NCBI RefSeq assembly: GCF_006334915.2
Contig: NZ_VDMA02000003.1
Coordinates: 62,001-126,000 of the forward strand
Direction: 5' to 3'
DNA length: 64,000 nucleotides
From: Microbispora catharanthi
GTDB lineage: Bacteria; Actinomycetota; Actinomycetes; Streptosporangiales; Streptosporangiaceae
Each line of letters starts with the position of its first letter. Positions within the stretch are counted from its first letter, which is position 1. This document shows, piece after piece, positions 10,305 through 11,474 of the stretch. The position numbers were made by a program, and so were the translations under genes. The notes under the pieces were generated by a model. It was not told where the DNA came from, ran no database searches, and saw only the letters and a program-made list of their open reading frames with translations.

Positions 10305-11474
10305 GTGAAGCCCCTCAAGGTCATGGCACAACCCGTAAGTCGACCCTCCCCCGTCGTCCGCCGCGTGCTCGTCCTCGGCGCCGTCGCGGCGCTGTCGACG
10401 GGCCTCGCGGTGGCCGAGATCCCCGCAGCGATCGCCACCGCCGACACGCCCGGCACCACGCTGGGCACCGCTGCGGCGCGCAGCGGACGCTACTTCGGCA
10501 CGGCGATCAACGCGAGCAAGCTCGGCGACCCGGCGTACACCACGATCGCCGGCCGCGAGTTCGACATGGTGACGCCCGAGAACGAGATGAAGCTCGACGC
10601 CACCGAGCCCCGGCAGGGGCAGTTCGTCTTCACCAACGCCGACCGGATCGTCGACTGGGCCGTGGAGAACGGCAAGCGGGTCCGCGGCCACACCCTGGTC
10701 TGGCACTCCGGGCAGCCGCAGTGGCTGCAGAATCTCAGCGGCAGCGCGCTGCGTCAGGCGATGGTCGATCACATCAACGGCGTGATGGCCCACTACAAGG
10801 GCAGGATCTACGCCTGGGACGTGGTCGACGAGGCCTTCGCCGACGGCACCGGCGGCCGGCGTAACTCGAACTTCCAGCGCACCGGCGACGACTGGATCGA
10901 GGTCGCCTTCCGCGCCGCACGCGCCGCCGACCCGGCCGCCAAGCTCTGCTACGACGACTACAACATCGAGAACTGGACCTGGGCCAAGACCCAGGGCGTC
11001 TACGCCATGGTCAAGGACTTCAAGCAGCGCGGCGTGCCGATCGACTGCGTCGGCTTCCAGGCCCACTTCAACAGCGGCAGCCCCTACGACGGCGACTTCC
11101 GCACCACGCTGCAGAACTTCGCCGCCCTCGGGGTCGACGTCCAGATCACCCAGCTGGACATCCAGGGCGCCCCGGCCGCGACGTACGCCGCCGTGGCCGG
11201 CGACTGCCTGGCCGTCCCCCGCTGCGACGGCATCACGGTGTGGGGCGTGCGCGACCCCGACTCCTGGCGCAGCGGCGACACCCCGCTGCTGTTCGACGGC
11301 GACGGCGACAAGAAGCCCGCCTACACGGCGGTGCTCGACGCCCTCAACGCCGCCGTTCCCGGCACCTCGCCCAGCCCGACGCCGTCCCCTCGGAAGAGCT
11401 GCACCAGCAGATGGGTGAGGATCAAGCACCACGGCAACCGGACCTGGCCCCGGGTCTCCTGCCGTGCCGCCTGA
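10305..11474 (+). CDS. Secreted GH10 xylanase homologue with altered catalytic residues
   Basis: A 389-residue exported protein. A twin-arginine-free signal segment (~residues 18-46, cleavage near TADTPG) is followed by a GH10 barrel very like Streptomyces lividans XlnA, for example [28 protein letters not shown] and [21 protein letters not shown]. In XlnA the acid/base glutamate sits in WDVVNEAF and the nucleophile in ITELDI. Here the first reads WDVVDEAF (D175, E176 kept) and the second ITQLDI, with Q283 (codon CAG at 11151) at the nucleophile position. After a PSPTPSP linker the usual carbohydrate-binding module is absent; a 22-residue basic tail with two cysteines ends the protein. A GGAGGAAGG site precedes the GTG. 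It probably binds rather than cleaves xylan, or is a decaying paralogue. Confidence 0.9.

Follow-up and report, generated by a model that had tools for sequence, protein, structure and literature searches.

Is a xylanase homologue that has lost its catalytic nucleophile an inactive protein with a role of its own, or an enzyme gene in the course of being dismantled? The question is raised by a GH10 gene of Microbispora catharanthi, located in a 64,000-nucleotide stretch of contig NZ_VDMA02000003.1 that is referred to here as the window and within which all positions are counted. The gene and its immediate signals are listed below.

10286 to 10295, plus strand: ribosome-binding site AGGAGGAAGG of the GH10 open reading frame, read from the sequence and conserved in Microbispora bryophytorum.
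10305 to 11474, plus strand: open reading frame of the GH10 xylanase homologue, protein P0001 (389 amino acids, GTG start, stop included).
10464 to 11342, plus strand: GH10 (beta/alpha)8 catalytic domain, residues 54-346, from the Pfam match and the AlphaFold2 model.
11502 to 11530, no strand assigned: palindrome GGGCCCGCTAGATCGGATCTAGCGGGCCC downstream of the open reading frame, read from the sequence.

P0001 is a close GH10 homologue of Streptomyces lividans XlnA, as the first-pass annotation of this DNA had held, and two kinds of evidence agree on this. By sequence, the protein matches PF00331 with an E-value of 3.6e-110 and 368.5 bits, against a cut-off of 22.1. By predicted structure, Foldseek ranks xylanases of S. 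lividans and S. olivaceoviridis highest, at 77-79% identity and an rmsd of about 1.0 Å in its best rows, and the model forms an XlnA-like (beta/alpha)8 barrel (TM 0.97 by target length), most ten-residue blocks of which are at or above 90 pLDDT. No stop or frameshift was found in the catalytic domain, and the frame is open to the stop used in the M. bryophytorum orthologue (L040), with which P0001 also shares an identical start codon and ribosome-binding site. Moreover, the signal-like N-terminus is retained, and P0001 should fold and enter the secretion pathway. The downstream palindrome resembles a terminator, and similar palindromes are present in the other Microbispora genomes displayed at the GH10 locus.

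What sets P0001 apart is its catalytic centre, where four codons are of interest (XlnA numbering is given after that of P0001).

10827 to 10829, plus strand: codon GAC, D175, XlnA Asn127 changed to Asp (1isv alignment); common to M. bryophytorum L040.
10830 to 10832, plus strand: codon GAG, E176, the acid/base Glu128, retained (1isv alignment).
10953 to 10955, plus strand: codon GAC, D217, XlnA Asn170 changed to Asp; unique to the window among the locus orthologues.
11151 to 11153, plus strand: codon CAG, Q283, the nucleophile Glu236 changed to Gln; unique to the window among the locus orthologues.

Alignment to S. olivaceoviridis chain 1isv pairs Q283 with E236, D175 with N127, E176 with E128, and D217 with residue 170. 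It thereby bears out two substitutions that had been picked up earlier, Gln at the nucleophile and Asp for the Asn of VVNEAF, and a third catalytic-centre change, N170D, is added here. In other words, the acid/base Glu on strand 4 is present and is preceded by Asp rather than Asn, and the Glu nucleophile on strand 7 is absent. In retaining hydrolysis by GH10 enzymes, the carboxylate of the nucleophile is needed for the xylosyl-enzyme intermediate. Since a Gln without that carboxylate cannot form the intermediate, normal retaining hydrolysis by P0001 should be lost. Judging by their titles, two PDB entries for XlnA, 1e0v and 1e0x, show the glycosyl-enzyme, which the nucleophile carboxylate forms. 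By its title, another entry, 5gqd, is a trapped intermediate carrying N127S together with T82A and E128H, and a change at Asn127 thus need not fully block the glycosyl-enzyme step.

The three substitutions were placed against a set of 91 GH10 rows at 60% identity or more to P0001, which leaves out the same-locus orthologues and in which some rows are one gene from two collections, so that they are not all independent. By this set, 122 of the 288 columns of the GH10 domain are near-invariant (at least 97% conserved), and 45 of these are also at least 90% conserved in 17 distant GH10 proteins, a group that excludes rows no longer than 250 residues and includes L001 (61%). P0001 departs at only three of the 122 columns, N175D, N217D, and E283Q, all of which fall within the 45 family-invariant columns, and the other 119 are intact. 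The nearest relative, that of M. bryophytorum, has N175D only, with a Glu nucleophile and Asn at 170, and N127D is consequently not peculiar to the window. N217D and E283Q are assigned to the window branch by parsimony, with four outgroup genes as the reference. Furthermore, the nucleophile is Glu in all three locus orthologues (L040, M. rosea L042, and L014), so the inactive state is not conserved among them.

So selective a pattern invites the thought that P0001 may be a functional pseudoenzyme, whose cleft holds xylo-oligosaccharides without cleaving them, the protein acting as a decoy, a scavenger, or a binder of signals. The untouched 119 columns favour such a role, as do the open frame and the signal-like N-terminus; free decay would be expected to hit structural columns too, and the solely catalytic nature of the departures therefore counts against it. 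The same substitutions bear on a second possibility, that the active site has been re-plumbed, with a carboxylate gained at 127 before the nucleophile was lost and some other chemistry taken up. Position 127 contacts the 2-hydroxyl of the -1 sugar, and this hydroxyl could, for instance, be assisted by a base. The order of changes, with N127D common to the constrained M. bryophytorum branch and E236Q and N170D on the window branch, is in keeping with this, as is the retained acid/base E128. However, the combination was found in the window only, and we know of no GH10 chemistry of this kind, with a carboxylate at 127 and no nucleophile. As the deletion of the binding module and the decay of the locus also indicate loss, re-plumbing has an extremely small chance of being right.

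It is also conceivable that P0001 is still an enzyme, either through deamidation of Gln283 to Glu following synthesis or because the codon is a sequencing error. A single base separates the CAG of the window from the GAG of M. bryophytorum, and deamidation of Gln can in principle occur where carboxylates are abundant. Against this, N170D and the module deletion accompany CAG in the same gene and lineage. The rest of the genome is also against it: there are 13 PF00331 matches in all, several partial and at contig ends, and of the 12 other than P0001, the eight that cover the nucleophile all read Glu. We consider continued xylanase activity by either route very improbable.

The Gln nucleophile was also looked for elsewhere, using a DNA pattern for V-x-[IV]-T-Q-[LF]-D-[IV] in three samples of 394, 341, and 392 genomes (some shared), and each site was then checked in tblastn searches that used P0001 and other GH10 proteins as queries (E 1e-3). 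Among 76 distinct sites, three are GH10, namely that of the window, L195 (genome G585), and L210 (G425), and all three belong to one bacterial family. Of 153 distinct GH10 stretches, 150 have a Glu nucleophile and these three have Gln, which is not a frequency, as the set includes hits from the Gln-targeted search. L195, from a one-contig genome, is 60% identical to P0001 and is changed at a single one of the 45 family-invariant columns (E283Q), with 19 departures among the 122. L210, at 45% identity, carries N217S, G250A, E283Q, and W321F among the 45, and 32 departures among the 122. Both keep Asn at 127, which also argues against re-plumbing, and each has a full CBM2-type module (CBM_2 by Pfam in L195; a similar C-terminal module, read from the sequence, in L210), which can be counted in favour of a binding role.

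Their relatives, however, do not share the substitution. In 40 loci of the genera of L195 and L210, 20 from a longer list for each, the position is Glu wherever it is covered, themselves excepted; the nearest relatives among the loci listed, at 78% identity for L195 and 56% for L210, both have Glu. The change consequently looks recurrent and sporadic, with Gln probably having arisen separately in the window and in L195 and L210. A clade of pseudoenzymes was considered and rejected, the position being Glu in every aligned stretch that covers it among the 118 listed loci (112 distinct proteins, from listings capped at 8, 30, and 80 loci) except for the window's own two copies. Thus the alignment of related GH10 sequences, proposed earlier as a check, revealed no Gln shared by descent among the relatives compared; among the loci listed, the relatives of all three Gln proteins have Glu, which weighs against a pseudoenzyme.

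Two other unusual GH10 sequences came to light in the genomes compared. L249 (G583:C21:63516-64529), with WDVVSEAY and CYNDYG, has Ser at the Asn127 position and is a sporadic active-site variant. L246 (G589:C63:74196-75290) is GH10-like with an internal stop (WNVVNEAF, CYNDYY, ITELEI) and is probably a decaying copy.

Another sign of what has happened to P0001 lies in its C-terminal tail.

11400 to 11471, plus strand: C366 to A389, what is left of a CBM2b-like module, its two terminal cysteines present and its centre deleted (alignment to L040).

Relative to its M. bryophytorum counterpart, P0001 is 71 amino acids shorter, in frame, with the linker shortened and the module core lost; counted from the sequences, 63 module residues are deleted. 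In the predicted model, residues 353-389 are below 50 pLDDT. The M. bryophytorum module (L040:7057-7377), in which Pfam found no CBM, does match two solved modules of Cellulomonas fimi xylanase D, 1heh (E 2e-16) and 1xbd (E 1e-13), which we take to be CBM2b xylan-binding modules. Most of the same module has been lost in M. rosea (L042) through a different deletion and a frame change. A new C-terminal module in P0001 was considered and rejected, since Pfam at E 0.001 returns GH10 only and the alignment shows a deletion remnant. The first-pass annotation had described the carbohydrate-binding module as missing and replaced by a short basic tail with two cysteines; the loss of the core and the tail itself are real, and the idea of a replacement is not, as the two ends of a complete CBM2b-like module are what remain. 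Excision of the xylan-binding core counts against a protein kept for binding.

A still broader view is obtained from the same locus in other Microbispora genomes, where the gene is bordered by two transporter genes.

9212 to 10147, minus strand: upstream neighbour, ABC transporter ATPase (Pfam ABC_tran).
11587 to 12573, plus strand: neighbour on the downstream side, an ABC transporter ATPase resembling DrrA (Pfam ABC_tran; DrrA1-3_C scores under its cut-off).

The minus-strand genes at 6732-10147 comprise a two-component system and an ABC-2 transporter, and a second ABC-2 transporter lies on the other side of the xylanase gene. By Pfam, no xylan-related function was found among the six scanned neighbours. 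The downstream flank is found at 87-94% identity in 10 of 14 other Microbispora genomes, or 11 of 15 including the window; the remaining four have only weaker transporter matches, and the locus states given here cover the 11 genomes. A gene or relic is present in five of them, and each of the five departs differently from the conserved pattern. M. bryophytorum (G003) carries N127D and a whole CBM2b-like module. In M. rosea (G006), none of the 122 near-invariant columns is changed and the module is destroyed. The G008 orthologue (L014) has E94G and K96T (XlnA positions 46 and 48) as its sole departures among the 122, which can be read in favour of a pseudoenzyme. Finally, G004 holds a frameshifted relic whose upstream part is gone and in which a deletion and frame change begin just before the acid/base. 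Counting the window, the gene is thus absent or a relic in seven of the 11 genomes and altered in the other four, and the number of absences and relics also stands against a pseudoenzyme with a retained function. Orthologue absence, relics, and damage are all found at this locus.

No GH10 hit was obtained at the locus in G013, G010, G012, G009, G011, and G007. The empty site of G013 has its junction at window positions 10194 and 11506, and G010 and G012 contain a short piece resembling the upstream DNA of the GH10 gene, which may be a scar. In three flank trees, which differ in detail, G010 and G012 adjoin the carrier M. rosea with support of 0.92-0.997 (G010 alone in the upstream tree), and G013 groups with the window in one tree (0.918) but has no secure position in the remaining two. 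On these placements, the simplest account would involve one relic and two or more complete losses. G009, G011, and G007 may never have had the gene at this site; no upstream flank was found in the latter two.

The gene tree of 53 sequences (seven were left out, their end motif being unmatched), an unrooted Newick tree, groups the window with L040 at 98 ultrafast bootstrap and both with L042 and L014 at 100. The closest intact relatives, from M. amethystogenes (L041) and M. triticiradicis (L039), are not at the window's locus, and the gene therefore seems to have moved between loci in Microbispora. That these copies have stayed intact is a point against decay, as is the chance of original absence in G009, G011, and G007.

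Substitution rates add to the picture. Between the window and M. bryophytorum, dN/dS is 0.64 for the GH10 domain (25 nonsynonymous and 12 synonymous changes). Three flanking genes have 0.13, 0.17, and 0.17, and a fourth yielded no value for this pair. Set against the downstream ATPase, the GH10 domain gives a Fisher P of 1e-4, and a test against neutrality gives P 0.24, which does not reject it. When the window is paired with G008, GH10 has 0.37 and the flanking genes 0.19, 0.22, 0.34, and 0.31. GH10 values range from 0.37 to 0.64 among the four locus orthologues and from 0.32 to 0.49 between these and the M. amethystogenes and M. triticiradicis genes. Three pairs of other GH10 genes gave 0.21, 0.25, and 0.40, and the window compared with other-locus GH10 genes gave 0.62 (L017), 0.44 (L038), 0.36 (L063), and 0.53 (L066). 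Because the contrast with G008 is weak and pairs involving other loci are similarly high, the raised dN/dS is suggestive, short of proof.

The distribution of changes is informative in another way. Only two of the 23 amino-acid differences between P0001 and its M. bryophytorum orthologue fall in near-invariant columns, where 9.7 would be expected (P 3e-4). On the M. bryophytorum branch, none of the 14 changes that followed N127D is in a conserved column (P 3.5e-4), so N127D alone did not end selection; free drift since N127D is rejected for this branch only, whose constraint fits a still-working N127D enzyme. On the window branch, two of nine changes are in conserved columns, both of them catalytic (P 0.19, from few changes). 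Across the four orthologues, four of five departures are at family-invariant sites, a weak excess (P 0.06) that lends a pseudoenzyme little help.

A short motif lies upstream of the gene.

10227 to 10237, plus strand: CGAAACATTCG, of the form [CT]GAAA(N1-2)TTC[GAT], a form also found upstream of related GH10 genes.

By comparison with Streptomyces, this motif is a putative xylanase control site. Of 101 related GH10 genes, 42 have this form upstream, against 0.4 expected from mononucleotide shuffles, the genes not being independent owing to shared ancestry; no match to the form was found ahead of L014, the orthologue in G008. Its retention in the window is a further point for a pseudoenzyme and, together with the open catalytic frame and the purely catalytic departures, a point against decay.

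The first-pass annotation had offered two readings, a xylan-binding pseudoenzyme or sensor and a recently inactivated copy. The evidence favours the latter, because the module core has been cut, the locus is eroding, dN/dS against the sister gene is raised, and Gln is shared by descent with none of the relatives compared. We therefore think it likely that P0001 is a recently inactivated, decaying, and redundant secreted GH10 endo-xylanase occupying an eroding Microbispora locus, and regard a functional pseudoenzyme as unlikely. A more elaborate proposal would combine the alternatives, in that GH10 proteins of an actinomycete family have repeatedly been made non-hydrolysing by the near-isosteric Glu-to-Gln change, with the site in the window rebuilt stepwise under selection, after the gain of a carboxylate at 127, into a xylan-binding protein or one of altered chemistry; this seems quite improbable.

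Under the favoured explanation, a decaying xylanase, the ancestor of several Microbispora species would have possessed an active, CBM2b-linked xylanase between two ABC-transporter operons. Asn127 would have changed to Asp before the species of the window and M. bryophytorum split. The window lineage may then have acquired Glu236 to Gln and Asn170 to Asp and lost most of the xylan-binding module by deletion. Loss of GH10 function could have been tolerated because the genome has other GH10 genes with a Glu nucleophile.

Several known systems help to place the gene. Compared with S. lividans XlnA and S. olivaceoviridis FXYN, P0001 is alike at 77-79% identity and in its retained Glu128, and differs in E236Q, N127D, N170D, and a CBM2b-like remnant in place of a whole binding module. 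Its sister gene in M. bryophytorum (L040, G003) has the start, ribosome-binding site, upstream motif, flanks, and N127D in common with it, but differs in its Glu nucleophile, Asn at 170, and complete CBM2b-like module. That module, of which the window retains both ends around the 63-residue deletion, resembles the C. fimi xylanase D CBM2b (1heh, 1xbd). L195 and L210 have Gln at the same position, but differ from P0001 in their full CBM2-type module, Asn127, and overall sequence (60% and 45% identity). No natural GH10 without a nucleophile was described in the titles and abstract openings of the papers listed. Pseudoglycosidases of other kinds do exist, and inactive GH28 proteins of beetles and YKL-39 are hydrolase relatives without catalytic function (PMC6549527, PMC7828330); for the beetle proteins, a role has been shown (PMC6549527). 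Such precedents speak for a pseudoenzyme, but here the inactive state was shared by no P0001 relative compared, at a locus in the process of loss.

Family models would annotate P0001 as a GH10 xylanase, and yet its activity is very probably absent. Moreover, one locus presents a natural allele series: an Asn-to-Asp change beside an intact module, alterations of the cleft, loss of the module, loss of the nucleophile, a relic, and an empty site. From such a series one can read, and test, the steps by which a redundant secreted enzyme is taken apart. Finally, three Glu-to-Gln changes at the nucleophile in one bacterial family pose the question of whether such proteins are dead copies or binders.
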